Assembly (NCBI RefSeq): GCF_947623445.1
Contig: NC_135247.1
Coordinates: forward strand, 2,172,501-2,236,500
From: Clavelina lepadiformis
Lineage: Eukaryota > Chordata > Ascidiacea > Aplousobranchia > Clavelinidae
Direction: 5' to 3'
DNA length: 64,000 nucleotides
Notes under the pieces: generated by a model
Told to the model about the DNA's origin: nothing
Databases searched by the model: none
The model's input: only the letters and a program-made list of their open reading frames with translations
Made by a program: the position numbers and the translations under genes
Shown here: piece after piece, positions 33,158 through 62,751 of the stretch
Numbering within the stretch: position 1 is the stretch's first letter
Layout: every line of letters starts with the position of its first letter

Positions 33158-36100
33158 TCAACAATAGGACATAACACGTTCCGTGTCACCAGGACCAACA
33201 CACATACACATAATACTCTCACCAACACAGACAACCCACTTGTCAACTATCCTACTTACCGCTGGATTTTGCTTGATGGAGAATCCGTATTGAGCGTTCC
33301 ATAACTCGTTCAAAACGTCAGCAGAACTTGACGAACCTAATCATGGCAAAATTGCTTAAGTGCATTTATTTTATTGTTAATCGAAAACGTCCTCTCTTAT
33401 CGATGGAGAACTTCAAAATGGGTGAAATCGGACAATAATTTTGGGAATTCGGCATCAGCGTCATATACCTTCTAATACTGTGCTTATGTCTGTCTGTAAT
33501 TGACCAGCTATCTCCGATAAAGCATCGAAGTTTACTGCAAAGTAAACTCGTTCGTTGGTGGTCGTGCCTGTGGCAATTGTCTGGAAAACACGAAAGTTGA
33601 ATTTTAACGTCGATGCCACAAGTCTGATGAGAAACGACTTAGTTAAACTTATGAATGGAATGATTGAACAAGTCTTAGACTCTTGCATATAGAGGGCGTT
33701 AGGGCAGAAATCAAACGTTGAAAGCAATAATAGTTGACGTGTAGCCGTTTTTAAGTTTTAAATTTCCGGAAAATATTTTAAGAATCTGTATTTAAAAATT
33801 GCTTTCTAAGAAAAAATAAAGCAATATATCCTTCAAATGCTTACCCGTAGTTCATTGATGTTGGCACCTCCAACGCCAACGGCAAACGTCAGAATATCCA
33901 ACGATCTTGCATAGTCAGCGCTACCACTTAATTTATTTGAGTCTGATGACCTGTAGCGAGAGCAAAGCAAAAGTAAATATTATATTGCTGTTTCATCAAA
34001 GCTTGTTTACGTATAAAGCGAACTTTAACAGCTGCGTCCAATTAGTATTCTTAGAACACACAAAAATAATAGGAACGCATAAATACTTACGCTCCGTCAG
34101 TTAAAAGAATGAGGACTTTCTGTCGATCTGATGTTGAGAATTGACCAACTGCTGTACGCAAGGCCGCAGCGGTATATGTGGAACCATAATCGTACACAAT
34201 AGCATCCACGGCTGCCTGAAATACAAAACAAGAACTAATATTTCTGTAAGCTCCATCCTGAATAGTTTTAAGTAATTTACGAAACAAGGTTGCCACTTAC
34301 CTCAAATTTCCTCTGATCCGTGAATTGACCAAGAGTAACTTCCACGGTGGTCATGTCTTTACTGTATAATAGTAGGATGAAGATGAATTTCTACGTTTAC
34401 GAATATTTATCATGAAATAAAGTAAATTTTTAAAAGATAAATCCACAATACGCTTGCCTTAAACCAAAGAAAGTTATCAGCAACGGCTGTATAAGGGTTT
34501 AGGGTATAAGGGTAAAAAGGATTTTTAATAACACGTATTGGTTAAGCAGTTATTACCAAAATTGTATCGCAAGTTTGACCGCCTATTATGACGATTATGG
34601 CGGCTATGATGAGATCAAAATATAAAACGATATACTTGTTAACCAAGGTTTGAATTAACTATAGGGTTAATTAATACGTATTCATAAGTAGTAGATTAGC
34701 AGTAAGTAATCTTTACTTTTGAGTATAGGAATTTGACAGTTGACTGAACATGAACTGGTAAAGCATTCTTGTTTTTACGGTGCCAGTTACCAGTTACCAA
34801 TTCCAGACTAGGCAAGCGGCAACAGCCAAGAGTTAGCTGTAGCTTTGCGTACATATTCCCAACAGCACTAGGTGCCGCCGCCATCTTCGTCATAATTAAG
34901 CGATAAATTTACAATTTTGTTCCACTTGTTTATGGCAGTAACTTCTTAAGCACTACATATTAGTACAATGTCATTCAAATCCTTTCTTCAGTGTGAACAG
35001 TGCTGACTAACAACTACTCTCTAATTTAAGGACAACTTGTTTTTGGAATTCCCACTATATTAATTTCTTAAGTTGAATCTCAAAATAGGTCGAGATAGGA
35101 CGTAAATAAATCATAGAATATGCAATTTGCTAATATAGATATATGTATATACAGAAGGAATTTGAAGTTGAAGGAAAAGAAGGACGATTTTGAAGTTTGG
35201 TTTTACTAGTTAGCTATGCTCACCTTGAATAGGTGATGACACCGATCCTTGTCGAACCGTCCTCGATGCGGAAATATCTCGAAAATTCTTTTGTCCATTT
35301 TCTCACCAAGTTGAAATTGTCATATCCAATCGATCCAGATGCGTCGAGCAGAAAAATCAGATCAACATTTTGAGTGGTTGGACAGGCTTTGATAAAATAG
35401 TTCAATAGAATTATATAGGTTTTATAGGTAATCATAGGTTTTTTTGTGAGACGAATTTTAAATCTAATTATACAAGACCGTCTACTACAGTCTTTGATAT
35501 TTGATGAAGTGCCAAGTTATTACTTCCTGGTATGTTATTGTACTTTGCATATATCGTAAACATAAACGATTGTTCGCTTCGTGTCATCGATTGTGTGTGA
35601 TTTCCTTGTTCAAACAATTTACACTTTGGAACTGTTAATTTAAAGCTTAAACGAATTTTCTACGCAAGCTAAATTTTACTAAAAACTAAAAACCTATCCA
35701 AACACAATAAAGTTGATAGACACAGGAAAGACCAGTTAAGGTCAAACTTTTGAAGACAAGAAACTTATATTAAGCTGTATAATCATATGCCACAAATATA
35801 ATTCAAAATCCAACCAAACTCATTACCATTGGCGATGGTCTTTGGGTCGCTCTCCCACCGGCCAGTTGTTGATTTTAAACGGTAGCAATAACCTGGAAAG
35901 AATTCCCTGTTTCCACATTCCTGGCGTCTTGTTGATGCACAAACCTGTGTGTTATTTTCAACAGTGGGAAAGGATTGAGTTCAGTTATTAGCATTGCGCA
36001 CGAAAGTATTGTGTCATGAAATTTTGTGTTAATTTTGAAAAGTTATCAGTTTATCACTAACAATTAAGTCTTCGTCAGCGGCCATTTCGATCTTCTGTCC

Positions 36101-36846
36101 AAGCGAATCTCCTGCTTTTGTTTCTGGGACATCTCTGATCTTGTAACAGTCTCTTCCACCTTCGCTGGTTAATCTCGGGTTGAATGAGAATGGACATTGG
36201 AAAATTTCGCCTTTGTAATCTAGAAACATTCTCTACTTATAATGTTGTTGAATATATTTAGTTAATCAAGTTTAAGATTTCTTTTTTAACAATGAGCCTA
36301 GATTAGTTAAAGTATTAAACTTGGTCGCCATTTTTTTCGTCTTTGAAAACATTTTTGTCGACCTGTTACTTGAAACCGAATAAGTTTAAGCAACTTTATG
36401 TTTGCCTTATCGATAGACCATGCTTTTATAACGTTCAAGGAATAGAAGCGATACAAAAACCTGTTGAAGAACCAATGGGTGGTTTCGAGGCCAATCTTGT
36501 GCCATTTGCTTTGGGTGCTCCGATTACAAGGCTGTGATCAGTATATATCATTGTGTTCATCATCAAACTCAAATCGCAGTTAATATTACCACGTTGATTT
36601 ATTTCAGCTTAACATCACAATAAAAAGCGCTTATTTTCTCACTGACCTTGTATTTCCTTTAACACTTTTTATTTGGTATCCGAAGAACTTTCCAGCACTA
36701 CGTTCTGCGGTAGAGGTTTCACTTGATGTTGAATCTGCTGGCGGCGTTATAATTCTCATCAAATTCTCGTCCACGGCAATGTTAAAGCCACAAACTGAGC
36801 TTGTCAAAATTAGTAAGAAATAAATCTCAAAGTTGAAAGGAAACAT
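33158..36846 (-). CDS. integrin alpha-like I-domain gene A (N-terminal half only)
   Basis: Ten exons on the minus strand, all phase-compatible: 36846-36647, 36531-36461, 36219-36062, 35944-35827, 35386-35224, 34361-34301, 34215-34091, 33950-33845, 33580-33469 and 33336-33260 (397 codons). Order: signal peptide ending SSVCG; first propeller blades (FNIAVDEN, KFFGYQI, VIGAPKANG, IFQCPFSFNP, CGNREFFPGYCYRL); I domain with MIDAS residues DASGS, the Thr of TYTAAAL and the Asp of LLTDGA; then NERVYF and the post-I exon (NAQYGFSIKQN) that matches the short stretch after the I domain in vertebrate alpha-1/alpha-2. Integrins continue for another 600-700 residues, but no such exons are visible downstream. 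If the last donor (GTAAGT) is not used, the frame runs 33 more codons to a stop at 33158. Closest paralogue: D. Its 5' end faces gene B about 2.1 kb away. Confidence 0.8.
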
Positions 36847-38974
36847 CGTTTTGTTTGTGGGGTCTCGTAGTCACTTGTTCAATGATGAATTTCTGTTGTT
36901 GACGCGTTGTTTTATGTAGATAAAACTGAAAAACCAACAAACCCTTTTTTATTTTTAGGACTTTATTTGCATAATTTTTATTCAAGTTTACAAATTCACT
37001 GAAGTGTTACAGTTGCTCGACTGACCTTATATGGACATGATTATTATTTTTAGCGTAAACTAGTATAGTTTAGTATATAGTAGTATATATATATATATAT
37101 ATAGTATAGTTTAGCAAAGTACTAGTATAGTATACACAGTATAGTTGATTCCAAATACATCTTTATGTCGTCTACATGTGATATTCTTTATATGGATTTA
37201 CCACTGGGTATACGGTATGTGAGTAAGCCATAGCATGTTTCAACGTTACAGTACATAACAAGTGTTTCGAAACCGTTTTTTAATTAACCATGGTTTATGT
37301 AAACATAATCTTATCACGTAAAGTTATCTAAGTTAGTTATTTAAAAATTTTCAGGAATATGCAAATTTTATAAAATTTGCCGCCATATGTAAATTGATTT
37401 TATTGTTATATTTTCTACACTTTACTTAATTAACATAGTTTATGAACATTCGGGTTTCCGACGGTTCTAGCATCTATACCTTAAGTCTATGCAGTATATT
37501 TATAGGATAATAATAGGCGATTATATGCTGATTTTATTCAAATACAACTCAACACATAGTCCAGATTATTTTGAAAAGCTAAAACATGAAATGAGGTAAA
37601 AGCAAAAAGAACAAAAGGTCATAGGATTTTCAAATTTCAGAAAAGAATGAGGAATTTCGTCATATTTTCTTCTATTCCGTACTAATTTCCAGAGAATACA
37701 AACTTGTGTCGGAACCGAGTCCAATGTGTTGTTGCTGAAGCGTCATCAATCCAGTGAAAAATCCGTATTGCTGCTTTTGTTGTACTTTCGTCTGTAGAAG
37801 AAGATCGCGTTCCGCTTTAGACGCAGATGATGATCTGACCGATAATGACGTAATGCTGAAATGTCGTCAGTATCTGCTAAGAAGTTTTGGATGTTTTCTC
37901 TCCTGTTTTAAGGGACAGAAACTTTATTTGCGTGGCGTCATCTAACGAGCAAATGTTTTAACCCATTTATCAATCTAATATAACGGAGCTACAATTTTTC
38001 CAGACCATATTCCGATTATTTGAGGCAAAACCGAAACCATTTGACTAAATACAATATTTCATGATGGACTTTTAGCTCTTAATCAGCCAGTAAATGCGGA
38101 CTTATTAAAGAATGGTATAATGGATAACACCCAGATTAGAAGATAACTTGCTTTTGTTGTGAATTTAATTGTTGTTTTGTTTTGTTTTGTTTTGTGTTTA
38201 ATCATGGAATGTGCCTGTGTTGGGACCCGAGCACGTCGGTGGTACGCCTGTAGCCTTGTTTAGCCCGTTGAGGTCTTGTTTGTTGTATTGAGTTGCCATT
38301 TGCTTTTTTTGACTTATCATAGCCTATTATTTGGTCTTTTGTTTAGGTAATATGTTTTAGAAGTTTGATGAAGTTTAAATAAAGTTAGTTGTTATGATAA
38401 ACTTCAACTTTCCTTTGACAGAAATAAATTTTTTAAAGTAGGCTAACTAGAATATTTTAGAAAATATTTCCTTCACTGTAGGCCAATATTCAAAGCATAA
38501 AGGTATACTTTTGTTGTTTCCATAGTTACAAATATTTTATATAGCCTACGCTTGCTTACAGTTACTGGTATTTCAAGCCTTTGTTAAAGACATACCAAAC
38601 TATAGGTCTACCATGACAAAATATTTTTCTATAACTGCATGATTCATTGGCAGGAAATTGCTAACTCATGTTGCAGCCGCAACTGATGAACGTAACTTAA
38701 CACAAATAAAAAAGAATTGAATAATTTGCTGGAGATCAAAGACTGAGTAAGCAATGATTTTGTTTCCTGTTGCATCACGTATCGATTGAAACGTGCTGAG
38801 TGTCAATGTCAATGCTTAGTTTGATAATGATAATAATGTTAATTAGCATTGTTTTATGTCTTGTCAGACAAGATCAGTTTAAACCGCAGTAGATATCTTT
38901 TTTGTGACATTGGTCAATTTTTTCCAGGTCGGCCACAAGAGTATAGATTAAACTAGATTGTTATAAGTTTGAAA
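36847..38974. promoter_or_regulatory. divergent intergenic region of genes A and B
   Basis: Head-to-head spacer of 2.1 kb that must hold both promoters. It contains a TA-rich microsatellite near 37076-37106, a short (GTTTT)n run near 38175-38196 and an AT-rich remainder. I can name no transcription-factor site. It shows no obvious match to the equivalent C/D spacer, unlike the genes on either side. Confidence 0.4.
37075..37106. repeat. TA microsatellite
   Basis: A run of alternating TA with flanking tatag units between genes A and B. Confidence 0.85.
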
Positions 38975-41505
38975 ATGATTTTTCAAACACAATTGGTAGT
39001 TTTTGTTACATTGCTGTTGTCTGCCAGTGCGTTTAACATTATAACGCAAATAGACAATGTCCAATTTCTTCAGCATTTGTACAACGATAAAATGAATACC
39101 ACTAATGGAACATCTGCGACCTACAATTTTACGATGACGTTTTTTGGTTACAAACTGGACATTTTGAAGTCGAATTTAAGTGACAGGTGAAAAAAATTGA
39201 AAAGTAAAATTTTAAACTGCAAGTGTATGTTACAAAGTACGTATGGGTTTCTAGGTTGTACGTCGGTGCTCCGAAAGCTTACAGGCCTCAACCAAGCCAA
39301 CAACCTTCATCTGCAGGTATAGGCAAAGCTAATTACAACTATAGCATTCAATCTTGATCACACTAATTTTTCTGTTTTCATTTTTTTTTATTTTTTTGGT
39401 GCTGAATTGTGATAAATTCTTGCGCAACTCTATATGTAAATTTGTATGGTACATGCTGTTATTTCGTCAAGAAACGTTTCAACTGTTACAGACTAAGTTT
39501 ATGTTTCAGATGCAAATGGTGACATTTTATCCTGTTCTTTAAGCAAAAGTTATTTTCATCCTGCATCCTCCATGCTTTCTTCTTGTACATCCGTAGATCC
39601 TCTTCCAGGCTCTCAATTAAGTGATTCGGCGGGACAGACTGTAGCTGTTAAGCCTAACAATGCGTTGCGTGCAAGTAGCTTTTTGCTAAGTTAGATTTAC
39701 ACCAAAATTTCTGACCAAAGTTTTTTAAACTCAAACTTTAGCAAATTCAAAACAACTCCAAAAGTCTGTTCAACTTTCAGTTGAGATTTTGTTTTAATTA
39801 AAACTTCTTAACTTATCATGCCAGTTAGCGGTTTTCATGTTAGGATATATCATTAATGCCTTATGAGTTTTCGATTTTAACTTCTATTGCCAGTTGAGTT
39901 TATTAGAGCAAAATGTAAACTTGCTTTTATGATGTTCCGTTAAATTAAGCTAAATTATAGCATTGTTTCTCAATGCAGGCCTGTGCACACAACAGACCGC
40001 AGAGCTGCCGAGGTAACGTTTTCTCTCCTGGACACTGTTACACCAAGAGCATTCCTGGGATGTGGGCACCAGACCCGTACACTAGAGATGCTCAACGTAT
40101 GTATTTGGTTGTAGGCGTAACAACAAATGGTAATCATGTATAAGTCGTAAAACATACGTGATTTATCAAAAGTATTTTTCGTTTTATAACTTGGACCAGA
40201 AAAAGGTTGTTCTAAAAATTATTTATTAACCATCTCCAATTATGTTTCCAGTTTGCCCTGACGTAGACTTTATCATCGTGTTGGACTCTTCCTTTTCCAT
40301 CGGGTTGGAAAATTTTGAGATGGTTAAAAATTGGACCAAGGAAGTAGCTCGCCACTTTGACATAAGTTTAGAGAAAAACCGAATAGGTGTGAACACATTT
40401 TCAGGGTACGGCTTGAAGTTGAAGATTTAAATCTGTACTCTGCTGTCTGAGTAAAGAAAAAATAAAAAAGAAACTTTCTGGGATTTCAGAGATTTATCCT
40501 GCGTTGGTGAAAATATTGGGCGGACATGGATATCACTGGGTGAATTCACAAATCAAAGGAATTTTGAAGTAAAAAAAAATTCGAACTTTTTAACTTTCCT
40601 CATTCCATGGAAATTTTAATTTTATGAATTTCGCGGTATAGAGCCACCACGAAACAATCTAATCATCGTTTCTTATGCAGGTGGCATCATGTAGTTACAT
40701 TGCCTTTCACAAATCTTGCTATGTTTAGGACGCTGTTAGTAGCATTCCTTATTTAAACCCTATGGGTACTTGTACCGCGACGGCTTTGAATTACACCGCC
40801 GCCCAGTTCTCAGACGGTAACAGGAGAAAAGTGATCATATTACTAACAGATGGGGTGTAAGTGTGAGATGCTGAAAATAATTTGATCATAACGTGTATTT
40901 GACTTTTATGCTCACAGACTGTTAAATTACACCACACGGCTTGTGTTTCGACCTGAAATATTTTCTTTGTAAAAATTCCGCATTGTTGTTTTAACCATGA
41001 TCTTAGATCCAGTGAATCAGCCGAGCTTCCAATCACAGCTAAATATGTGAGGTCGCTTGGTATCTTCACTTTTGCTGTTGGAGTCGACGCCGCCAGAATA
41101 AGTGAATTGCAGGTAAGTTCGAAGACAATTGCCCAATCATGATGAATAGAAGCTCAGCCGCTTCCTGTGCATCCCATGTAAGGGAGTTGCATTTTACGCA
41201 GATTATAGCAACTGGCAGGAACACTTCTGAACGAGTTTACTTCACCTCGGACTTCGGTGCTTTGCTCAACATCTCTGAGGAACTTTTCATGGATCTGAGT
41301 TCGATAGCATTGGAAGGTATCACCTTGTGCTTCTTGCTGCTGTGCTTCTAAATCAACAGTTGTATTTGATATAAACGAGTGATTTATGAAAATTTGGTAA
41401 TGGAAATTCTGTTTAGGTTTTGAATCCACTTCAGTAAACTTCCGTGACGCGCAATATGGATTTTCAATACAAGTTGACCAGGTGAAAGTATATTTCAACA
41501 CATAG
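38975..41505 (+). CDS. integrin alpha-like I-domain gene B (N-terminal half only)
   Basis: Ten exons: 38975-39186, 39255-39316, 39510-39670, 39979-40096, 40252-40405, 40490-40568, 40729-40856, 41007-41112, 41202-41316 and 41417-41481 (400 codons). Same order and phases as gene A: signal peptide (LLLSASA), propeller start (FNIITQ, FFGYKLDI, LYVGAPKAY, GDILSCSLS, SCRGNVFSPGHCY), I domain with MIDAS DSSFS, Thr in TCTATAL and Asp in LLTDGV, then GRNTSERVYF and AQYGFSIQVDQ. Exon 3 ends at CGT|GCAAGT, a GC-AG intron; C has a normal GT there. After the last exon the frame passes through the donor GTGAAA and stops after seven codons (VKVYFNT, stop 41503-41505). An AATAAA lies about 200 bases downstream (near 41712). 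No further integrin exon is visible before gene C, which lies in opposite orientation. Closest paralogue: C, including intron sequence. Confidence 0.8.
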
Positions 41506-42599
41506 GCCTAGTCATACAGTTTATGATATACTCGATTTACTGGCTTGGAACCCAGTAGCAATTACAGAGAGATATCGGTTGTTTTGCGCGTTGGCATGTT
41601 CACTGTTTTGTGTGCTTGTTTCGTGTGCTTGCATCTGTCGATGTATGATATTGTCTTGAGGTACGGTTACAAAACAATAACAATACGCGATTAGAGGTTT
41701 AGCAAATCCAGCCAATAAAATGAACCTTGTCGAAGTCATGCAAGCAACAAAAAAATATAAATATACCAGATACTCGGCGGTATCTTAATTTTAACGGCCA
41801 TCGCTAAGAGATGAAGGTTGTCTGAAGACAGAGCATACAAAAGTAAGTTGGGTTGCATTTTTACAGCGAGAACACAAAGGCCATGTAATACATTTACTCT
41901 TTTCAGCTTTAAAAATAACCAACGTAGGAAAAAGCAGAAACATTAACCCTACCAAACAGTAGAAGAAATTTGGTTTTCAGAAGCACTTACTGTAGGTTGG
42001 TGGGTTCTGTATTGGCTAATGTTTAACATCTGTTTGAATATGAGTATTTTTAAAATTTTAAGTTGTTCTTATATCTTTCCTTGAATTAATTTGACATATC
42101 TTTCATACATTTTTTGTTTTAGATATTTCTCTCGCTCTGAAGTAGCGACGTTATATGCAACAAGATGTTCACTTCTTCTTCTCCTCTCGTTTTTGTGTTT
42201 TAGTTCACCGGTGTAATATGCCTTTAATTCAAGCTGTGAATAGACATTCTATCTGATATATCTGATATATTATTTTCAATGAGTCCAGCAAACGTTAGAT
42301 AGAAATTGTTTATGTAGTTAATGGCAGGACTGGCCTCAAACCGATGCAAGGGATGTCACCGCATTGGTCCTCACAATTTTCGGAACCCATCACTACTTCG
42401 CTCCAAAATAGTGATAAAAACTTAGGCTTTCATATTGGGCAAATTTCATTGCTATTTTGTTTAAGACTCTACGTGCTATGAAGTTGTCGAAAGGTTCCAC
42501 GTTGATTCAACCACTGATGTTCCGAGATCGATTTCTGAAAAATTTCAGTTTATTTTCAAATTCTATTGCCTTTTGATGATATGAGTCTTGATTAAAGCC

Positions 42600-42690
42600 A
42601 ACTGCGTTAGTCGCGTCGTAGCTCGCCATAGTTTTTACAGTAATCTGAGTAAAAGGTTGTGGGTTCAGATCCCTCTGCAGCCGTATTATT
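42600..42690 (+). repeat. tRNA-derived SINE-like head
   Basis: An A-box-like tagctcgcc is followed about 40 bases later by a B-box-like gggttcagatccc, the internal pol III promoter layout of a tRNA. The stems do not pair well, so this is a tRNA-derived SINE or a relic rather than a working tRNA. Confidence 0.45.
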
Positions 42691-42972
42691 ATATCTTTCT
42701 TCTTTTTAAACTTAACAGCTGATGCATCGTCGTTGGTTATATTCGTTACATCACATCGTTTCAGGTTCGATTCCAGGCCTTGGGAGAAAGAGAAATGGGA
42801 AAGAAGGGCATAAACGAACTTTAAAGCAAAATGAAAATAAATATTTAGCATAATCGTAAAAAAAAACTTAGTCTTCTTGCCTCACTAACTAATGTAACTA
42901 TAACCTGTATAGCCTTAACGTCATGATTTATACTGTTACAAAGTTTGGCAACAAGACGACTCCGTAGTTAGT

Positions 42973-43044
42973 GAGGGTACTCCGCAACGGTAGCGCATCC
43001 GACTCCAGATCAGGTGCTTAAGAGTTCAAATCACGCCCGGGTCA
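42973..43044 (+). repeat. tRNA-Trp-like pseudogene or SINE head
   Basis: The stretches gcaacggtagcgc, gactccagatcag and gttcaaatcacg match the D arm, the CCA anticodon arm and the T loop of animal tRNA-Trp. The acceptor stem and T stem do not pair (the 3' end gggtcac lacks its 5' partner), so it is degenerate: a tRNA-Trp pseudogene or the head of a SINE. Confidence 0.6.
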
Positions 43045-44031
43045 CTTCTTCTTTTTATCTCGATGTCATGACACTGACGAACGGTTTCAGGTCAATTTAA
43101 CCCTGGAAGAATAAATTCAGGATGACCCAACCGACATAACTTGATAGTAAGATAACATTAGAAGATAATATAAGACAACCTTGAGTTGAATATGACCCTT
43201 GAGATCAATTATTCTTGGTATCATCTCATGTTGGTGGAGCTGACCTGAATTCACCAGCCACCATGACGAACAAAGTGCTACACGGAGCAGTCGCAATCTA
43301 TTGCTTGTGCGCCCGTTGTTCTCAGAGGTCACAAAAAAGATAATATAGGTGCAAAGGATCCTTGGTTTCGAGTTATCACACACTTTAGCTTTTGTATTTT
43401 TTAATTTTTTTTACGATGTCCACGCGGTATCCATTTGCGTGAAGGTTTAAAGTGTGTCCTGCAAACAAATATTCCAGTTGTTGTTTGTGTTTATTTGTTG
43501 TTCCAGTTGTTATTTGTCACTATGGTCTTTAGTCAAGACCATGCCTAAACTACAGCTTACGATGATAGCTGACTCCATTGTGAGATACGAGCTCTTCCCA
43601 AAAGCATAAAGACGGCCGCCACGCAATAAATAGTTCTTTGAACCCCTTGTATTTCGTTGCTACAAATATACAACACTACTCACTTCGGCATGTCCCGAAG
43701 TTTATTTTCAGCATCCAATAGGTGCCACTGAAGCAGGGACTTTCAGAAAGTGGCAAGTAATATCATTTCGCATACCTGCGTTTGCGTAATACTTCAGCAA
43801 GCTATATTTGTATAATCGCCTAAATTTCTAATTGTTGCTCTGTAACCGGACCGCAAGACAAAAAATACGTCGACGTATCTTCAAGCGAACAAAACAAGCG
43901 CACATACACACATGCACACTAAGAACCAACCAGCAAACACATCGACATGCAAAGTTACTGATACCTTTCTGCTGTTAAAGCTGGTTTCCAAGCCAAAAAA
44001 TTGTTTTGTCTAATTATCAAAAGTTATATAA

Positions 44032-49357: not shown

Positions 49358-51148
49358 ATGTTTTATTTCAACTTTGAAATTTGTTTATTATTATATTTGA
49401 CAAGCTCAGTTTGCGGCTTTAACTTTGCCGTGGACGAGAACTTGATAAGAAACATAACGCCGCCAGCAGATGCAACATCAAGTGAAACCTCCACCGCAGA
49501 ACGTAGTGCTGGAAAGTTCTTTGGATACCAAATACAAACTCTTAATAGAGATGGTTATATAAGGTTAGCGAGAAAATGTGCTCTTTGTATGTAAAATAAA
49601 GGCTCCAATGAACCAAATTAGTAATTCGATAAATTGTAAACAGTTTGAGTTCAATTTAAAACATCATTGTGTTGATCACAGCTTCATAGTCGGAGCACCC
49701 AACGCAAATGACACAAAATTGGTCCCGAAATTATCTGTTGGATCTTCAACAGGTTTTTAATTTAATTTTCAAAAAATGTTTTCAATGACGAAAGAAATAA
49801 CAACAAAAGTTAGCAGAAAGGAAACGAAACTTTAAATTTAATTATTAGGAAAAGTGAGCTAAAGCTCAAGTCATCAAAAAGTTTCAAAGGGCGCTAACAA
49901 ACGACATTTTCAGATTACAAAGGTAAAATTTTCCAATGTCCGTTCTCATTCAACCCGAGATTAACCAGCGAAGGTGGAAGAGACTGTTACAAGATCAGAG
50001 ATGTTCCAGAAACAAAAGCAGGAGATTCGCTTGGACAGAAGATCGAAATAGCCGCTGACGAAGACTTAATTGTTATTGATAACTTTTTTAATTTAGCATA
50101 AAAGTTTATGACACTATAATTTCGTTCGCAATGCTAATACCTATAATACCAAGCTTATACCTATAGACTATTTCAAATAACACACAGGCCTGTGCATCAA
50201 CAAGACGCCAAGATTGTGGAAAAACAGACTTTGTCCCAGGTTCTTGCTTCCGATTAAAATCAACAACTGGAAGGTGGGAAAGTGACCCAAAGACCACCGC
50301 CAACGGTAAAGAGAATGCTTGGGGTTTAAATCATGTTTGTGTGATGTGTGGGCTTCCGTAAGTTTTCAAACATATTTGTGAGGTTTGACTATACAGCTTA
50401 ATGGTTTTCTTGTTTCTATCAGTATTATTGGGTTTACTGTAGCTGTAACCCACATATTTGGTTACGTACGCTCCTATTTACATTTCTTCAAACCTTTGAC
50501 TTAACCTTGCGCCTGGTTTTGTAATTAATTCCATTTAAAACGTTTGCCAAGAATTTTATCACAAACAACAGCTCAGCGGTGTTTTTTGAAAAAAATCACA
50601 CACAGCAGGAAGTAAACATTCAATGCATGACAAGCATTACGTCATACCAGGAAGTGTTGAACTAACTTTGACTTTTCGTCAAATGCCATCGCCTGTAGTC
50701 GACGTTCTCACATATTTAGATACAAGTTCATCGATGTCAATTTACTTGCACAAAAACGTTTCTTTTTGTAATTCTTTTTCATAGTTTGTCCGACCCCACA
50801 TGTTGATCTGATTTTTCTCCTCGACGCATCTGCATCGATTGGATATGACAATTTCAGCTTGGTTAAAGATTGGACAAAAGAATTTTCGAGATATTTCAGC
50901 ATCGAGGACGGTTCAACAACGGTCGGTGTCATCACCTATTCAGGGTGAGCTTAACCAAATAATAAATTTTACGTATAATAATCATTAATCTGTGGTGGAA
51001 ATGACATTTTTTTCCTATTTGCATAGTGTGTTTATTTCTATCTGTCTGCATGGCGAGTAACAATTTGATGAGTGATCCCCGCATAAGAGACGACTTTTAA
51101 TCAGTCACAGACTTTAAAGTTTTAAATTTTAAAATAGTTACTTTAATT

Positions 51149-51495
51149 CAGTGGTTTTCAGCCTGGGGGTTATGACCCCATGGGTATCATTAGGCTTTTT
51201 TCGAGGGGTCGAGAGAGCTTTCGATGTACCTTAGAAAATATTTCAGTCAAATATATTTATAAATAAATTTGTATTTCATGAGAGAACCATTTAAATTTGA
51301 TCCCCTGGAAACAACTGTTTTTAGTTTCTATACACGAGTCTTTGTTCAACAGCATTATCATTTAGTCATTTATAGTTTGCTATTGTGAATGCACGACATC
51401 AATACATATATTTAGCTGGAAATTTTGAAAGAGGGCTGTTTGATTATATTGTGTTGCAAAATGGGTCGCAGTATGAAGAAAGTTCGAAACTATTG
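51149..51495. mobile_element. non-autonomous hAT-type element in gene D intron 5
   Basis: Starts cagtggttttcagcctgggg and ends with an imperfect inverted match (caatag on the reverse strand). It is flanked by an 8-bp duplication with one mismatch (ctttaatt at 51141-51148, ctttagtt at 51496-51503), the hAT target length. No coding capacity at 347 bp. Confidence 0.65.
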
Positions 51496-51769
51496 CTTTA
51501 GTTGATAACAAATAGTTAATCACAGAATGAATGGCACATCTTCGTGGTATATTCGCGTAAGGACTGATCTTTCAACAGTAATGGTAATGAAGTTTTAACT
51601 TCAGAAACATTTATCACAATTTATAACCAACAATTATAGAATGATTGGCGAATCTTTGTGGTCCTCTTACTATAAAGCTACGACCACCGTGGAAATTACT
51701 CTTGGTCAGTTCACGGATCAGAGGAGATTTGAGGTAAATGGCGACATTGCTTCGTAGGTTACTTTAAAC

Positions 51770-52223
51770 CAGGGCTTCCCAAACTGGGGGTCGCGACCCC
51801 GCAAGGGGTCGCGTAACGAACTTCAGGGGTCGCAGAGCGTATACCAATTTTACACGAAGTACAAAATACAATCGAAACAAAATATCGTTCCAGCCTAATC
51901 AACATTGAAACCGCCTTGAGACCAGCATTAACAGATATTGAGCCACGGCTGGACTTGCTTTGTAGCAGAAAGCAGTCGCATCAATCACACTGAATAAATG
52001 TGTGTGCTTTTTTGTTTCCAGTAGCCTATATATGTGTAAAGTAGTAAGTAGACTTTGAGTACTGGTTGCTTGAATTCAGCCTTTACTCTTTGCATCTCAA
52101 TAAATTTCACTAATGACTAATGTATGTTTCGCACTGCTAATTTAATCAATTTAAACGTGAAGGGTCGCGGAAAACTTCAGAAGTTTGAAAGGGGTCGCGA
52201 GCAAAAAAGTTTGGGAAGCCCTG
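51770..52223. mobile_element. non-autonomous hAT-type element in gene D intron 6
   Basis: A 454-bp element with terminal inverted repeats CAGGGCTTCCCAAAC and GTTTGGGAAGCCCTG, flanked by a perfect 8-bp duplication CTTTAAAC (51762-51769 and 52224-52231). No coding capacity. The equivalent intron of gene A (34216-34300) is 85 bases long against 547 here; the difference, 462, equals the element plus one duplication. A has a single near-copy of the target (CTTAAAAC), so A is the empty site. Confidence 0.92.
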
Positions 52224-52810
52224 CTTTAAACTATTCAGGATTGAGCTTACAAAAATATTACTTTTTGTTTTGTATTTCAGGCAGCCGTAGATGATATTGA
52301 ATACGAATATGGTCCAGCCACATATACCGCTGCGGCCTTGCGTACAGCAGTTGGTCAATTCTCAACATCGGATCGACAAAAAGTTCTCATTCTATTAACT
52401 GACGGAGCGTAAGTGTTTCAGTTGTCCATATCGTTTCGTTAAATTTCAAAATATTGAAACGGCGCAATTATCTCTATTCGTGACGTAAGCAATGTAATAT
52501 TGCTTTGTTTTCGTTACAGATCAATTGATTCGAAGAATTTAAGTGACAGCGCTAACTATGCAAGATCATTGGATATCTTGACGTTTGCCGTTGGCGTTGG
52601 AGCAGCCAACATCAAAGAACTACGGGTAAGCATTTGAAGGATATAGACTGCTGGTATTGTTGTAGACAGTTACAGTAATTGCTTTTTTAATGGTACACTG
52701 TCATTTTGTTAAACACTTTAATTAAACACGAAAAGTGAGGCCTAAAAGAAACACCTAAAATGGTTACATGTTTAAATCGCACATGTTTATTCTGTTTTGT
52801 GTTTAAATGT

Positions 52811-52885
52811 TGTTGGTGTTTACTAACTAGGTGTTTATTATCTTTGGTGTTTACGTGTTTACTAACTAGGTGTTTACTATTTTAT
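52811..52885 (+). repeat. short tandem duplication
   Basis: Two adjacent copies of a roughly 35-base unit containing gtgtttactaactaggtgtt, in the damaged 3' part of gene D. Confidence 0.7.
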
Positions 52886-52949
52886 GCGTATTGTTACTTG
52901 GCAGTCAAAATTTCCAAAATAGCGTTTATTACAGCAGTGCAACAGAAAC

Positions 52950-53115
52950 AAGGCAGGTACAATCACGGGCGCCGGAATTATTTTTGGCAAGGGGCAAAAT
53001 TCGATAAAAGGGCACTTTTTGAATGTCATTTTGGAAAATAAAGAAAGAAAAGGGGGCAATGGCCTCTCTGCGCTTCCTCTTCCGGCATCCGTGAGTAATA
53101 ATAATAATAACAACC
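52950..53115. repeat. retroposon-like insertion ending in a TAA run
   Basis: A stretch unlike its neighbours (cgggcgccggaatt, agggggcaatggcc) that ends in (TAA)n at about 53095-53111, immediately before the surviving half of exon 10 of gene D. A simple-repeat tail is typical of LINE or SINE 3' ends; I do not recognise the family. The left border is not clear. Confidence 0.5.
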
Positions 53116-53197
53116 GCCCGTTTCGAACGAGTTATGGAACGCTCAGTATGGATTCGCTCTAAATCGAAATGCAGTAGTAAGTACGGTAAAACGTTAA

Positions 53198-56100
53198 ACT
53201 TTGGAGGCATATTTTCGCGTGCGTGTATATTTGGTGCGTGTTGTTGCGGGCACGTCCGTCATGTCTGTCTGTTTGTCTGCCTGTCAGTGATGTATGTCTG
53301 TCGTGTCTGCTCTGTTGTTGGTTTGTGTCGCCTAATTTCGCACAAGAAAATCTACTTTCGAGTAAAGGATTGCTGAAAAAACGCCCATGCTTTCGCAATG
53401 CCGCAAAGTATTTATAGGTTTCCAAAAATTAGCATAAATTTCAAGAAACTCCTCAAAAGGTATCACGTTGATAAAACTACAGGTAAGTTTGTCATGAACG
53501 AAACTCGCAACAAGCCCATGGGGTGCAGGTTAGTATATTTTTATTTTGTTACATCATGCGACTTAAAACTCCAACATCTTCTTGTAATAGCAGGGATTCG
53601 ATTACAATCTATTCCCAAGATCTCAGCATCAGCAAATTGGTTTTTCCTTCCGAAACATTTCGGCTGCCACAAATGGTGAGTTATATTGCGGCCGAGTTGT
53701 TAGTATTGGGACTGTAATTCTTTAAGCTCTCGTTTCTGTGTCAGATGTGTAATATCAGATGTGCATCAGCAAACTGGTTATACTTTTCGAAAAGGCAGAC
53801 TACAGCAAATGGTAAGATACTTTTGTTATTATAATAGTTTTAATAGTTTCAGTATGAAACAAGGCTACTTGTACATTTATACATACCTTCACCAATGGAC
53901 TGGTGTCACTCGAAATATTGATTGTTAATTCATGTTTACATAGAATTTGAAAAAGAGAAATATTGTAGAAGCAGAAAATGATTTGACACAAAGAATCGTT
54001 AAAAGAATATTGAAAATCGGAAATGGGACGTTTTTGCCGCTCAAATTTCCACTCGTACCATTGTGCGGACAAAATTCGACTGTGCTGTGAGTAATGTGAA
54101 TAACAATCTGTGTTTCCTTTCGGTACCAGGTACAACCGAGAGGTCAACGGCAGAGTTTTTGCAATGTTAGAAGCACTTCCCAGTAGTTTTGAAATATCAC
54201 ACATACACTTTTTTACCAAAACATTCCCAGTCTTTGGGTGAGTTTGTTCTTTCACATCAATAATTTGAAATAACGATTTAATTCAGTTTGCACAACTTCG
54301 TTTTTGACAGTAAGTTTTTCCTCCAGCAACCGGGAGATGTCGCCAGAGAACAAACCAAGAGTGGCGGTGAAAAAAAACGGATTGGAAAAGTTCGAAGATT
54401 TATCATCCAAAGTCTTAGTGTGGTTTCTGGCTAAAACTGCATAGCAAGGAAATAGAAGTTTTTCGTTCAATGTTTGGAAATTTCCTTTTTTCTAGGTGGT
54501 AGTTGCCGGTGCAAAAACCCTGGTTTGATTTTAGAACAAATTGATATTTAAATTGTTTACTGTAAAAATAAAACGAAATCTTTATCATTCAGATGATTGT
54601 TGCTCAGTTATCTAAAGAATTATATTTTCCACTTTCAAAGGTAGTTAATAGCATATTCTCATTATTTATTATCAGACCTCGTTCCAACTCTGAGAAAGAA
54701 GATATCTGGAAGAAACCAAGTTTTTTTTCCAAAAATACTGCTTTTTCCCACCTTTATAACTTCCAGTTGTAGTAAATTAAATGTCAGTAAAGTGAGTTCA
54801 ATGCGGTTTTTATCAAGTTTATTGTAGTTAAGATTGTGAAGACATGAAATAAGCAACTTAACTTTAAAGTTATTTCACTGCATCAGGTTGAACACAGCAT
54901 CTTCAAAGTCATAATAGGAATCACTTTTTGAATCTCATCTACAATCTTTTTTCTGTTTACGGCATTTCGCTTTTTTCAATTTATGAAAAATAGCTTTGTT
55001 TTGTTTGGGGCTGAGCATTTGGAAAAACGAAATTTGTGTCAAAATAAATACTTTGCTGTGAAAACGTTTGCAAAACTTATTATGAATGCCTTTGACAATA
55101 TCCTTTGTATGCAGAGGATTGCAGCATCGCGATAAGTTGTTTAGTCCAGAAAGTAAGACGTATTTATACATTAATATAATGCCAGGCGAATGTGGTAAAA
55201 AAGTTTGCAAATTCGTCAATTTTACAAAGTAAGCAAAGGTGTCGTTCACCTAAAATGAGAAGAAAACATTTTGTTTCGTTTCACTCGGGGAATGGCTTTG
55301 GTCGCCCCGAGAAGTAAACTCGCTACTGTGGGGGTTGGCATGAGCATGACTCTGCATGAGGTTTTCAGCAGGTTCATCTTCCAGGAACGAAACATTGAGA
55401 TGCGGATGCATTGAACCTATGATTGTAGAAGACGGACAGCATACATTTTCCCGAAAATGAAATTCTACAACTGCATGACGATGTCAGCATTTAATTAGCA
55501 ATTTGTCCCAGTAATTTTGTGTATCCCAAAACATTCCTGAATTCATAAAAATGTTTCTGGTTGGAAGTTTAAAGTAGTCAGATTATTGTCATTTTGGATT
55601 ACGCGTTTTGGAAATCCGGACTGGCCTTTGAGTTATGTCATGGACCACCAGTAGCGGAACTCCGGTGCCGAGATATCATTCTACACAGCATAGCACCGCC
55701 CATGTTGCTTACTCATAGCAAACGTGCAGTGATGGTAAAATAATCAACGATTAAACAATGCAGTATTGCGCTAGTTTCTTGAGTGAAGACAGAAAGCAGT
55801 GTTATCTTATTATACTAAAGCTTTGACACATAATACATCGCTCTTATGCTGCGAAGAATGAAAATCTCTTCGTTCCTGACTTTCTCAACTCGCTTTGACA
55901 TTGAATTTACAAGCTATTGACATTTTTGAGTGATTTCTTTTAACATAAATCAATGTACGTCATATGCGAATAACATCCTCAATTGCCTTATTCATGTTGG
56001 TAGAATCTACAGCAACGACAACAAATAAACTCCTATGAAATTCTTTTGGAAGAAATTATCTATTACAGAAGCAATACAGCAAAGCATACTCTTACAAACG

Positions 56101-57334: not shown

Positions 57335-60300
57335 ATGGCAAGTAAGGTTGTTGTTTTCACAACTCTGCTCGGTTGCTGCTGGTGCTACAACATTGAAACT
57401 AGCGGCCGCTACATCAAGTACATTCAGTCACCGATTCTGTCAATTGGTGTGGAACGCGTTCCTGACAGTGGCCCAGTTTTCCCAGAGATTACGCCATCTT
57501 ATTTTGGTTATGATTTTCAACTCCGACCTGGCCCCGGTCAAACTTTCAGGTAAGGAATATGAAATAATTTTCAAACTAAGTAGTGATGGTATAGGCTAAA
57601 AATATAACGTTAATGAAACCACTTGACTTCTTTTGCTTTTGATGTATAGGTGGTGAGTATAGGTTTTGGGTGTAGCTTTTAACTTAGGTATTAGTTTGTC
57701 CAAGAATAACAGAAGCATTTATCGTTGATTGTTCATTGCTTTTGCATAACGGTTTTTATGGTGAAGTTATCGTCTAAAACTAACAAGTAACATCATCAGA
57801 AAATGTAAAGTAACATTTTCCATTTATGTTCGTTGAATTTGAAGTAGTATAAGGGCCTTGTTTAGATTGCGAACTTTCTCTGCGATCTTTTGATTCCTGG
57901 TCACGTTCCAAAAGATCGTGTTTCCGTCGCACGTCCTGCAAAGGCTACGCGTTGATTTCATTATATTCTTTCGACTGTATTTAGGTTGAGATATAAACAG
58001 AATGGACTTGCTTTGGCAAAAACGTGAATTTATTATCCGGATAAGAACATTTAAAGATCTCTATTTACCGTCCGATTACTAACTATGTGTCAGCAAGTTA
58101 CTTGTGGGACGTGCGGTGCACTTACGCTATCACTGCCGTTTTGCGACCATGTCAATCAATCAATGCCTTTATGACGTAGGTTTTACGTCAAACCTCCGGA
58201 TGTAAAGGGTTACAAATATGTAGTTTTCTACAAATATGTAAGGAAATGTGAAAGGTTAAAAGCTTTCATCTAAAAATTTTTTTCTGCCAATTTGGTAATC
58301 ACATACAACGTCGTTTCAATTTGTACCATGCAATTAGCTTATTCCGGAAAGGAATAAGCCAAAAAACCTATTATGTTTTAAACTGTCGACATTGATAAAT
58401 CTGTTTCAAATTACCGCCATATGGTCTTCCACTGCTACTTCCCCGGCGGTGTTGATATGTAATTTAGTTCATACCAAACAGTATGACAAATTACTGAAGT
58501 TATTTTCAAACAGAGTTGAGATCAGTTTTTATTCCAGGATACAGTTCCTTTACAATAGCAGCAACCTCTGTTATGTGCAAACGAAACTTATTCTATGCGA
58601 ATCGACATTTACGTGAAAAAGTTTCAAGAAAATGTGGAAACTTTCACACAAGTTTTCCACAATTCTGTCAAAATTCTCCCTTATATAGCGATCCACCCAG
58701 TCCAAAGTCACTTACATAGTGCTTTGACACAAATATGAATGGACATGAAATCATTTGACAGCTGCTTGCTCAATCACAACAAAACCTTAACTCCACACTA
58801 CGCCGTATAGATACACCACACATGTCGGCATAAGTAGTCTGCAGTCATCAAATACTTAACACCTTAAAAGAATTTTTGCGTTAATGCAAACTAATGCTAT
58901 GAAATATCTTAAGTGACTGAGATTTGAATTTTTTATCAGTATTAGAAGTGTCTCAGTTTTTAAAAATGATGGACTTCAGGCATGTGCAGGATGCCTAATA
59001 ACACTAACACTTTGTGTGAAAACAGGTTAAATCTATACAGCAGCGTCTTTGCATTATTTCGGTTATTAACCATGATCGATCGTGTTTTACAGCGATAAAT
59101 TTAAAAGTAAAATCTGCTTTTTTAACTTTTAGCGTAATCGCTGGCGCACCGAAAACGTCAGACGCCAGACGACTTTCTTCTCAAGACGGATCAAACTCCT
59201 TATCAAGTGAGTTTCAACGTATGGTTGGTGAACAACATCTTTTAATGTAGGCTAGTACAGTAAATTTTAGTGGCTATTGGAGTATCCCTGCTTTGTTTTC
59301 GATCGTTATACTGCATAGTGAAGTGATAAGCATATTGTGAGTATGATATGATTTTTATTTAAGCTTTTACTAGGAAAGTTGCATTTAAATAAACTTGTAA
59401 GGAGTTGGGTTGTATTCATTTAAGTTACGCTGTCTTCATTTGTACAGTGTAGTTCTGACTTAAAATGTCGAAATATTTCTTCATCGGTTTTAGCAACTGG
59501 TGACGTGCTAACCTGTCGAAGTGGTTTCCCCCCGCCTTCTCCTCTTTGTTCTTCTATCGTTCCTCAACCTGTTAGCCCTGGTGACAATTACGGCCTTAAT
59601 GTGGAAGTAGGCAGAGATTCTACATTGCACGTAAGTGTACAACCTTTGTTGTGTATCGTTTGGAAATGTTCCTCTTTAGCAGTTAAAGAGTTAAAGACAG
59701 AGAACTTGTTGTTAAAACTAGAAAGCAGCTATAGCTCTGAAATGTTGAGCTATAAACAGTTACAACCTTGAGCTTATTCCCCTATGTTCCATCAGGCTTG
59801 TTCACCAACGAAGGAACAGAGCTGTCCTCCGGTTCAGTATAGTCCTGGGTTTTGCTACAGACGACGGAGGAACAGAGCGGAATGGGAAGCAGATCCCCGA
59901 ACGCAAGAACTCGGTGAAAAATCTTTTAAATTTTTACTTGACATACTGTAATTTGGTTCTAAGATAAAAAATTTCCTTGGACCATGTCTTACAATCATTC
60001 AATTGACTTAGCATGTCCACCAATTAACTTGGATCTAATCTTCCTACTTGATGGTTCGGAATCCGTCGGACCAGTCAACTTTGAAACTGTGAAGGACTGG
60101 ACCGTTAATGTTTCTAGGAGTTTCGACATTAGGGATGGGTCAACCCGTATCGGTGTGGTGCAGTATTCTCATCTTGATGTAGATCGAAATGGCAGGTTTG
60201 ATTGTCATTGAACTTACTTTTCTTGATTACTTCTTATATCTTTGATACTCTCAGTGCTGCGATATTATCATTTTCGGAAAAAATCTACATCAGTGGCTTT

Positions 60301-62751
60301 CAATTTTTTCTGATCGCTTATATGCCGGCGAGAAGGTTTTTGTTATTGTCGCTGCGTAGTTTGGTGGAGAATCACCGATTTAGAAAGATCGGTATACGAC
60401 CGTGCACGTGCCTTGCTTTTGTTTGTTTCGCTGCATTCCTGGTTGTGTTTGGAAACTCAGTAAAGCATCTAATTTGTACAGGCCTCTCGCCAGACAAAGA
60501 AATATTGTTACCGAAATTGAACTTGGGGCTCAAAACAATTTCAATGATTTTACGGTAAGCTTAAACTAACGTTGGACAATTCGACAGCTTTTAGACAGTC
60601 ATTGTGGAGCTTTTCCTCTATCAACAAATCTTAAAGTATCAGGGAAATGGAAGTACAGCACAGTATAATCGTTACAAAGTTCCAAATCTTACCCCATTTT
60701 TATACTATTTTATTTGCAGAGAGCCGTGGAAGGAATTAAACTTCAGGCATTCACCACCTATACTGCTCACGCTTTGAACAAAACCGTCGATGACTTTGAG
60801 AGTTCTCCACGGTTTGGTGACAGCAGCACAGCCAAGGTCCTGATTCTTCTCACCGATGGCAAGTAAGCGGGCACAGATATTGTTTTCACACTTGAGGTGC
60901 AAAAACACGAAGATCCTTGCACAGCTGAACATGTATAAGCTACGGTATACTATCTCGGCTCCCGTGTCCGCTTTAAGTATGTGGCTCCTTGTTACGTAAT
61001 GGTTCCGGGTGTGTTGCATAATCCTAATCTTTTGTTAGTATAGGTTACTACATGGTGGTGAGTTACACATGCATTCGATTTTCTATAGGTCGGATGATCA
61101 AGCGTATTTAGCTGATAGCGCCAACTACGTTAGAAGTTTGGGTATAACCACGTTTTCCGTAGGCGTCGGCGACATTAATATTAATGAACTGAGGGTAAGA
61201 AAAGCTTCTTCTTGTGTTAGAATTTGTTTCATTTTTAATGGTGCAAATGTACAGTATAAATGATTACAATATTGCACCTAGATTTTATCATAATATATAC
61301 GGTTTTAACTTATAGCCATACATGAAACGCTGCAAAGATTGAGATTCTAAGACAGAAATTATGTGTTGCTTATGATTAGGCTGCGCAAGGCCTAACGCAT
61401 TATATGTGAAGGTTCCATGCGCTTTACATACGAAAGCGTTTGCCTCGTTTGCGCCGCACATGATTTGCCGAAGGTTTAGGAGTTATTTGCGACTCATGAA
61501 TGGAAAAGGAGCTTGTGGTTCGAAGATAGGTTTTCGTTATTATTTCTATAACTTGGTACACGAAAGACGATTTGTAATTAATTCAACAAATCATTATAAA
61601 CAATATCAGAAATTCAGTGTGTTTTAATCCTGGATTGTGTAATGTGTTCACTTTTAATCTTGTTGGTGTTAAATGACGGCTTTAATGAAAAGATATGTTA
61701 CAGGACAACATACAGAACTAACATAAAAATCTTTTCTTTGAGTTGTGTCTGCTTGCCTTAGACCTGTGTTTTTCATTCGTTAATTTTATTTGTCTACTCT
61801 GTGTAAACTACGATGTGAAAACTAATTGCGCTAAATGCTTGACGGTTGCATAACAGATAACCCTTGATATGATAACTGATTGCTGGAGAGTCACAGCAAT
61901 CGAAAAACTGAAGTTTTGTTTTCAATGAATAATGGTACTTTGTTGAAGGTGGGTTTAAACGAGGGTAAAGAGTGGTTCATTAAATGGATTTAGCGTGACT
62001 GGCCAATTGTCAAGTGTGGCCGGATGTTACTTTTCAACGCATGCGCCACCCATATTTGTAAGGCATACGGTTGGGATATAGGTTGTTTTTCACGTGTGGA
62101 TTTTGTGAGGACCGCAAACAAACATGTTAGCCACATAAAAACTTCTGTCTGAGTTTGAAGAAATTCCTTTAGCTTTCTCCTATATGTTTACAGCTAAATG
62201 CATTAAACATGCGAGTATGACTGTAATTTGTTTTTGTTATAGACGGTTGCGACAGGCACTGACACAGATGAGCGGGTTTATTTCGCGAATGATTTTGACG
62301 GTTTGAACGAAGTTGCCGGCAAGCTTAGAGCAGCTATTCTATCATTTGTGTTGGAAGGTGAAGGAGTTTTTATATTCCCTACCAAAGCTTGCATCCTTGT
62401 ATGCTGTATTTTAGCTCTTATAAATTTACAATTCGAATATAAAAAACCTGCATCACTTTCACAAAAGGTACAATTGCGACTGGAGGCGGACCATCATACC
62501 AGTTAGAAGTGGCTGAAACCGGAATCTCCATTCATGCATCTCGGACGGTAAACTACATAAACTTCGGTTGGAAAATTAGGTGTACCATTGTGTGTGTGGG
62601 AGCGAATGTTGGCTGTATGTTTGTCGTCGTTTGCTTGTATGTCCATGTTTTGTCCTGTACGCGCAAGCTCGAAACATCGCAATTTTCAAGCGATTACGTG
62701 CAAATTGCCAAACATTTTGGTAATTTATCCATCTATGAAACAAGAACATAG
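57335..62751 (+). CDS. integrin alpha-like I-domain gene E (N-terminal half, possibly anchored)
   Basis: Ten exons in the shared phase pattern: 57335-57549, 59133-59206, 59494-59630, 59796-59913, 60012-60195, 60482-60554, 60720-60862, 61089-61194, 62243-62357 and 62468-62547 (415 codons). Signal peptide (VVVFTTLLGCCWC), then propeller start (YFGYDFQL, VIAGAPKTS, GDVLTC, CPPVQYSPGFCYRR), I domain with MIDAS DGSES, Thr in TTYTAHAL and Asp in LLTDGK, then TDERVYFAND, and a post-I exon whose YQLEVAETGISIHAS matches the alpha-1/alpha-2 stretch FQMEMSQTGFSAHYS very well. This is the most divergent and most integrin-like copy, and it stands alone. If the last donor (ACG|GTAAAC) is skipped, the frame continues 67 codons to 62751 through a hydrophobic run (VGCMFVVVCLYVHVL) followed by CTRKLE, which could act as a membrane anchor. 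Otherwise the next exon is beyond the window or missing. Confidence 0.78.

Follow-up and report, generated by a model that had tools for sequence, protein, structure and literature searches.

The stretch of DNA analyzed here, 64,000 nucleotides of chromosome 8 of the ascidian Clavelina lepadiformis (C8:2172501-2236500, hereafter the window, within a 209-Mb genome; the accessible part of the report on the published assembly gives 210.1 Mb in total and 19.51 Mb for chromosome 8, PMC10884593), holds a cluster of integrin-alpha "head" genes whose copies are designated A to E. We rebuilt all five by hand from three-frame displays, checking every splice. Four of them proved to be intact genes that code for blades 1-2 of the integrin-alpha propeller, an I domain with a complete metal-ion-dependent adhesion site (MIDAS) and a post-I exon with the motif LEG, whereas the fifth, D, is broken. 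The intact copies are laid out as follows, with positions counted from the first letter of the window and the ten exons given in order of reading.

36846-36647, 36531-36461, 36219-36062, 35944-35827, 35386-35224, 34361-34301, 34215-34091, 33950-33845, 33580-33469, 33336-33260, minus strand: head gene A, 397 residues; the public model P0008 adds 33 residues of read-through
38975-39186, 39255-39316, 39510-39670, 39979-40096, 40252-40405, 40490-40568, 40729-40856, 41007-41112, 41202-41316, 41417-41481, plus strand: head gene B, 400 residues
46672-46461, 46389-46328, 45955-45798, 45609-45492, 45296-45143, 45062-44984, 44809-44682, 44530-44425, 44335-44221, 44120-44056, minus strand: head gene C, 399 residues
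57335-57549, 59133-59206, 59494-59630, 59796-59913, 60012-60195, 60482-60554, 60720-60862, 61089-61194, 62243-62357, 62468-62547, plus strand: head gene E, 415 residues

Reading is open through all ten exons of each gene, with end phases of 2,1,0,1,2,0,2,0,1,0 in all four; the introns are of the GT-AG type, bar GC donors after exon 3 of B (39670) and exon 1 of C (46461), and exon 10 ends in every case at a phase-0 donor. The N termini look hydrophobic by eye. B and C are convergent, and the 2.57 kb measured between their exon-10 ends agrees with the 2.5 kb of the original prediction, a reading of this DNA that had also described five paralogues of ten exons in identical phases, with the MIDAS intact in all five. 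Because D is best read as a pseudogene, a dead relative of the other copies, these claims hold for four copies; D has the MIDAS letters, but in a broken frame, and exon 9 is absent.

49358..53183, plus strand: D, the degenerate copy nearest to A; exons 1-5 (49358-50944) readable, exon 6 at 51673-51733 with its acceptor lost, exons 7 and 8 at 52281-52408 and 52520-52625, remnant of exon 10 at 53119-53183

At exon 6 of D the acceptor AG of A is altered and the reading frame breaks; no match to exon 9 of the other copies was found in D, and exon 10 survives as a remnant that adjoins a TAA repeat. Over exons 1-5, the ratio of nonsynonymous to synonymous substitution rates (dN/dS) between A and D is 0.44. 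The two copies are also alike past exon 10 (32957-32796 against 53527-53688, 74% identical, plus two shorter blocks); these blocks were considered as exons and rejected, given that they hold no integrin-like frame by eye and that the introns of A and D are alike as well (up to 84% over 443 bases, intron included). The intron after exon 6 of D further contains an insert at 51770-52223 with inverted ends, CAGGGCTTCCCAAACT / AGTTTGGGAAGCCCTG, resembling a non-autonomous hAT element.

The head proteins and the missing body

The N-terminal part of the window proteins has the first blades of an alpha-I subunit, with the FFGY start and the CSP..Q.C..PG.CY segment. F57, G58 and Y59 of that start do not vary among the 12 short forms compared, which include A, B, C and E, and neither do six cysteines that precede the I domain (C104, C115, C144, C152, C162 and C183); the MIDAS (DxSxS, T, D) is complete in 16 of 16 short forms, again including these four. 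The Pfam VWA model scores 124 bits in A, 95 in B and 109 in E, the three copies scored, and VWA-type domains alone exceed the Pfam cut-off in head proteins. Among solved structures, CD11c and CD11b can be aligned with E; the match starts in the first blades or the pre-I segment and runs through the I domain to the post-I 'EGT..GFS', the CD11c alignment beginning at query residue 97; a collagen VI chain outscores both, owing to its many VWA domains. When a predicted fold was submitted to Foldseek, the headpieces of CD11b, CD11c and CD11a ranked top, with root-mean-square deviations of 9.5-13, values so high that the domain arrangement is not readable from these matches. AlphaFold2 models the I domain of E (17-row alignment) at a predicted local distance difference test (pLDDT) of about 86-96 and its N-terminal unit at about 40-75, and the I domain and N-terminal unit of sister copy F (16 rows; listed below) are comparable. 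The proposed derivation from integrin alpha is supported both by the joint match of CD11c and CD11b over blades, I domain and post-I segment and by the rank of the three headpieces in the fold search.

The remainder of an integrin alpha chain, i.e. blades 3-7, thigh and calf, and a membrane helix with a GFFKR-type tail, is absent from the window copies. A genome-wide search with the FG-GAP model PF01839 gave 34 matches, none in the window and the nearest on chromosome 8 at 6.48 Mb, more than 4 Mb away; the thigh and calf regions were sought with PF08441, which gave eight matches at E up to 1, again with none in the window. Three ascidian bodies (Clavelina, Ciona and Phallusia; 903, 887 and 899 residues) were then compared with 28 sequences, namely the window and 27 fetched loci, and detected neither blades 3-7 nor legs, transmembrane (TM) helix or GFFKS tail, whether within the window, in C8:2162501-2172500 (10 kb) or rightwards to C8:2262000 (25.5 kb). 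Their matches at E up to 0.1 fell in 3 of the 28 sequences (L017, L018 and L019), all of them belonging to H or J.

C8:6.478-6.490 Mb, body at 6.484-6.490 Mb: H, full-length alpha-I, public model P0016 of 1361 residues, with blades, TM helix and GFFKS
C8:15.248-15.256 Mb, body at 15.248-15.255 Mb: J, full-length alpha-I, with blades, membrane helix and GFFKS

Fragments of H used as queries downstream of A-E found no missing exons there. Two weak matches to the TM query were discounted as chance: one lies in exon 3 of gene E, in another frame (E value 0.05), the other near 14.7 kb on the opposite strand (0.65). Hence, the view that none of the copies shows remaining blades, legs, TM helix or tail has been sustained, in the window and its flanks, by both domain models and by all three bodies; at the other head-only loci, coverage extends about 3 to 9 kb past the last exon. 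As separate observations, J has after blade 3 a long Ser/Thr-rich open frame, an unusual propeller insertion (L019, C8:15.2540-15.2549 Mb), and no LEG motif in the frames read.

Relatives, ends and evolution of the short genes

A protein search with E yielded 13 proteins (E up to 1e-3) from 3896 candidates and one with a 12-row alignment 14 proteins (E up to 1e-20) from 6430 candidates; a third search added P0019 and P0021. The head-only models placed elsewhere in the Clavelina genome are listed here.

C3:1.336-1.340 Mb: P0002
C8:6.449-6.454 Mb: F (P0003)
C8:6.465-6.473 Mb: G (P0004)
C7:9.80 Mb: P0006
C8:14.82 Mb: P0019

P0011 and P0021 are further Clavelina head-only models, and Styela has four (P0007, P0010, P0012 and P0013, the last without the first exons). 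The 427-residue head-only protein P0009 comes from a contig of 1661 nucleotides; the 377 nucleotides that remain are far too little for nine introns, so P0009 looks like a transcript. P0005 (Styela; two VWA domains, no blades) and P0014 were discarded as not head-only. Counting A, B, C and E, at least nine placed head-only loci stand against two alpha-I loci with a body, and more clusters of integrin-like I-domain exons lie at C8:4.20-4.33 and 19.07-19.10 Mb (L021-L031), with no body in the stretches read; additional I-domain matches are located on other chromosomes.

Head G lies on the same strand as H, about 13 kb upstream of the first H body exon (C8:6.4646-6.4903 Mb, L015-L018), the sole place seen where head switching in cis would be easy. 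In Ciona, P0015 comprises head 1, part of head 2 and a body, and P0023 has head 1 directly on a body that is 97.2% identical to that of P0015 (290 residues compared); the P0023 head is 93.2% identical to head 1 of P0015 and 48.0% to head 2. This pair suggests two different heads for one body, with head and body as modules separable at the same boundary, although two tandem genes would look identical.

The public models of A (P0008, 430 residues) and E (P0001, 482 residues) equal our rebuilt models plus a read-through of the exon-10 donor (33 and 67 residues), and the public ends of P0002 and P0019 are straight read-through as well; in B and C such a read-through would hit a stop after 7 codons. 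The donors themselves read GTAAGT in A, GTGAAA in B and C and GTAAAC in E, and the full-length H splices at the same point, FDK being followed by GTAAGC. In G, the last residues of the public model correspond to a small terminal exon preceded by an AG at C8:6472729. The public F model ends in residues that differ from the read-through, and its terminal exon ('SV', stop) was not found in 9.4 kb with one acceptor pattern. Overall, head-only models end 7 to 75 residues past the post-I 'GFS'-like segment, with the exception of P0006, in which exon 10 is skipped. That the genes stop after the post-I exon therefore agrees with the stretches read, in which no body occurs, with the like ends of the public A and E models, and with the same end in other Clavelina and Styela models.

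62548..62751, plus strand: read-through of the E exon-10 donor, 67 residues and a stop, with the hydrophobic stretch IVCVGANVGCMFVVVCLYV (Kyte-Doolittle mean 2.43); this is the end of P0001
33188..33247, minus strand: T/G-rich tract after exon 10 of A, 80% T+G in 60 nucleotides
41571..41630, plus strand: T/G-rich tract after exon 10 of B, 78%
43888..43947, minus strand: T/G-rich tract after exon 10 of C, 83%
62579..62638, plus strand: T/G-rich tract after exon 10 of E, 78%, lying in the frame of the read-through

The best Kyte-Doolittle value over 19 residues of the read-through tails is 2.43 in E, 2.74 in P0002, 3.21 in P0011, 1.47 in A and 0.46 in P0019; the public tails of F, G, P0007 and P0009 have no hydrophobic stretch (by eye; two of the four were also scored), and AlphaFold2 gives the E tail a pLDDT of 26-35 in ten-residue blocks, as for an unstructured segment. 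The tract, scored as the best 60 nucleotides within 180 of the donor, ranks first in T+G among the ten post-donor stretches of each gene, A, B, C and E (in E by 0.78 against 0.77 for the runner-up); random 180-nucleotide stretches reach 0.78 in 0.6% of cases, 0.80 in 0.3% and 0.83 in 0.1%. It was first spotted in A-E and then tested, within 400 nucleotides, in F (0.77), G (0.77) and P0002 (0.87), all in the top 3% of random stretches, and in P0019 (0.70, top 19%), so that seven of the eight short copies tested possess it, the copies being related and hence not independent; after exon 10 of the full-length H, T+G is only 0.57. The tract may be a splicing signal, may code for a hydrophobic tail or may reflect shared descent. 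Poly(A) signals listed after exon 10 carry no evidential weight.

Usable dN/dS values come from the pairs B/C and A/D, five of the six pairs with A or E being at or near synonymous saturation. Between B and C, dN/dS is 0.39 overall and 0.25 in exons 5-6, and the synonymous excess is significant (Fisher p 4e-6, on rounded counts), which supports purifying selection on these two genes. The supposition that the I domain is under selection in all five copies is to this extent substantiated for B and C, with saturation limiting the comparison for A and E and with D being a pseudogene. Exons 1-6 of B and C differ by 61 nonsynonymous and 42 synonymous changes; exon 1 (38975-39186 / 46672-46461), with 19 nonsynonymous and 3 synonymous, shows the reverse of the whole gene. 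Exons 8-10 have a single synonymous difference in 96 codons, and translated comparison (tblastx) of 40941-41505 with 44596-44032 finds 90-93% likeness in three frames over 188 codons, introns included, that drops just past exon 10, a pattern resembling that of recent gene conversion in the 3' part.

In a tree built from 20 heads (5 long, 15 short), the short heads do not group as one clade, and well-supported branches force at least three changes between long and short. Phallusia P0017, which is full-length, branches among E, F, G and P0002, and the Styela P0012 groups with H and Ciona. A single origin of the short heads is not supported by this tree, which long branches leave uncertain.

Weighing the explanations

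We consider it probable that A, B, C and E are complete short genes made from alpha-I head cassettes, the body having been lost repeatedly, and that they encode what are probably secreted, MIDAS-dependent binders. These genes would stem from the ten-exon head cassette (exons 1-10) found in ascidian alpha-I integrins, the phase-0 donor at its end lying just before blade 3. Copies of this cassette would have duplicated, the body (blades 3-7, legs, membrane helix and tail) would have been lost more than once, and the protein would be cut off after the post-I exon by codons of the former intron 10 (A, E) or by a small terminal exon (G). The product, of about 400 residues, would consist of a signal peptide, a six-cysteine N-terminal unit (the former blades 1-2) and the I domain, and would bind its ligand via the I-domain MIDAS with no integrin stalk, serving in the blood as a soluble adhesin, opsonin or decoy. 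Judging from this anatomy, secretion is most likely and MIDAS-dependent binding may be expected; a role in blood and immunity, or in self/non-self recognition, can be proposed because many Ciona alpha-I integrin expressed sequence tags stem from blood cells (accessible part of PMC1145181) and because ascidian integrins are listed among complement receptors in a review (accessible part of PMC5465252). Repeated loss of the body from duplicated heads, with short genes remaining of which selection maintains at least two, appears to be the simplest account.

Several observations weigh against this explanation. A still has a good 5' splice site at the exon-10 donor, and B, C and E keep the GT there, whereas a read-through gene needs none; the public protein models of short heads are predictions, and B and C are without one among the protein-search matches. 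Of 16 short forms, 14 retain the internal-ligand glutamate, in LEG or MEG (a script detected 13 of them and P0013 was read by eye; P0006 and P0021 lack it), a hint of some link to a beta chain and an oddity in a protein that has no beta partner. According to the accessible part of one source (PMC12422189), the glutamate of the motif, I/LEGT, engages the beta MIDAS in full integrins, and collagen and other VWA proteins have no conserved counterpart. In the AlphaFold2 model the mature N terminus has a pLDDT below 50 and the remaining N-terminal unit one of about 40-76, too low to establish an independent fold. On the tree the short and long labels cluster no better than chance, 193 of 500 shuffles scoring as low, and the flagged long branches (J and Ciona head 1) make the number of changes soft.

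A rival explanation sees decaying fragments, all five copies being partial duplicates that turn into pseudogenes, a state that D has already reached. Partial duplication without the 3' half is a common outcome of unequal tandem duplication, and the missing public models of B and C, as well as the excess of nonsynonymous changes in their exon 1, point the same way; however, four of the five copies are open across about 1.2 kb of coding sequence in ten exons, the B/C ratios are low, in exons 5-6 above all, and head-only models recur on other chromosomes and in Styela, so that we regard decay as unlikely. Much the same low standing belongs to the idea of variable heads on a shared body, in which head cassettes with their own promoters and signal peptides would have the exon-10 donor spliced to one constant body, in trans or over a long distance in cis, a few bodies thus carrying many heads. 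The identical phase-0 boundary with its conserved GT, the modular look of Ciona P0015 and P0023, the position of G before the body of H and the retained LEG would fit such an arrangement, but the FG-GAP search has no match closer than 4 Mb to the window and the flanks covered contain no body, the copies lie in both orientations, so that cis splicing cannot serve every copy, F and G have ends of their own in the public models, with that of G matching a terminal exon, and the Ciona pair could be two similar tandem genes, comparable to Ci_alpha5-8 (accessible part of PMC1145181). A broader conception that we hold to be just as doubtful would treat ascidian alpha-I integrins as ten-exon head cassettes and body modules joined at one conserved phase-0 boundary, the heads multiplying alone and being either spliced onto a shared body (in Ciona, and for G ahead of the H body) or free, cut off by codons of intron 10, with secreted heads using LEG to act on beta chains in trans and thereby tune full receptors.

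Somewhat less credible again are membrane-anchored heads, in which the T/G tract would code for a Cys/Val-rich helix that anchors a legless I-domain receptor. The rank of the tract among the ten post-donor stretches of A, B, C and E (narrow in E), its absence from H, its presence in F, G and P0002 (unclear in P0019) and the hydrophobic tails of E, P0002 and P0011 speak for an anchor; against it, a T/G repeat gives Cys-Val whatever the frame, read-through ends after 7 codons in B and C, F and G have different tails in their public models, the tails of A and P0019 score low, and that of E is modelled with very low pLDDT. A T/G-encoded membrane helix in every copy was dropped altogether, the tract not being part of the reading frame in B, C, F and G. 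It is very improbable, finally, that the copies belong to normal full-length integrins, the other exons having escaped notice through divergence or distance: short exons and long introns do allow misses, and the flanks covered amount to 10 kb and 25.5 kb, yet the same queries detect the body of J despite its being a distant relative, two bodies of about 2.7 kb of coding sequence each would have to share the 2.57 kb between B and C, and the genome-wide FG-GAP search is negative near the window.

Known systems and other features of the window

The complete short genes that we favor share their N-terminal blades, MIDAS I domain and post-I segment with ascidian alpha-I (alphaA) subunits (Halocynthia alpha1, Ciona alpha1-8), and their full-length relatives on the tree are Clavelina H (P0016) and Phallusia P0017. 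The accessible part of PMC1145181 describes the eight Ciona chains as sharing other major integrin features, including the membrane helix and cytoplasmic motif, whereas the window copies have no membrane helix, cytoplasmic motif or other body features. The heads of CD11a, CD11b and CD11c (alphaL, alphaM and alphaX) provide the best joint match over blades, I domain and post-I segment and share the I/LEGT motif, but they are long, beta2-paired membrane receptors, unlike the short heads. Secreted VWA proteins such as collagen VI, matrilin and the mussel PTMP1 share the VWA fold, and public names of some short heads (matrilin-1-like, vitrin-like) reflect that fold; to our knowledge, these secreted proteins have no integrin blades. 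The integrin I domain is of early chordate origin, is common to tunicates and vertebrates and underlies leukocyte receptors. A functional likeness may be drawn to DAF-2B of C. elegans, in which the ligand-binding part is kept for use as a decoy while the anchor and signalling parts are gone; DAF-2B, though, is a truncated secreted isoform of one receptor gene (accessible part of PMC7041946), and the Clavelina short heads are separate genes.

Our literature search, which covered titles and abstract openings with most subscription papers outside its coverage, gave no report of head-only integrin alpha genes. A head unit without stalk, anchor and perhaps partner asks whether an I domain and two blades suffice for function, and free heads would be a natural test of what the internal-ligand glutamate does. 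Moreover, ascidian integrin counts ought to be reread in the light of the nine or more head-only loci and the two alpha-I loci with a body, itself a partial census.

Elsewhere in the window, a 556-residue open frame at 4339-6006 (plus strand) has no Pfam match, and two Pfam batches of ten further open frames each returned only one 7tm_1 fragment and two below-cut-off matches. Gene A had been thought to run into the 3' side of a G-protein-coupled receptor gene; a 7tm_1 fragment does occur at 25908-26267 (plus strand, E 4e-7), with a score of 30.1 bits that lies just under the cut-off of 30.5, and such a receptor beside A is plausible.

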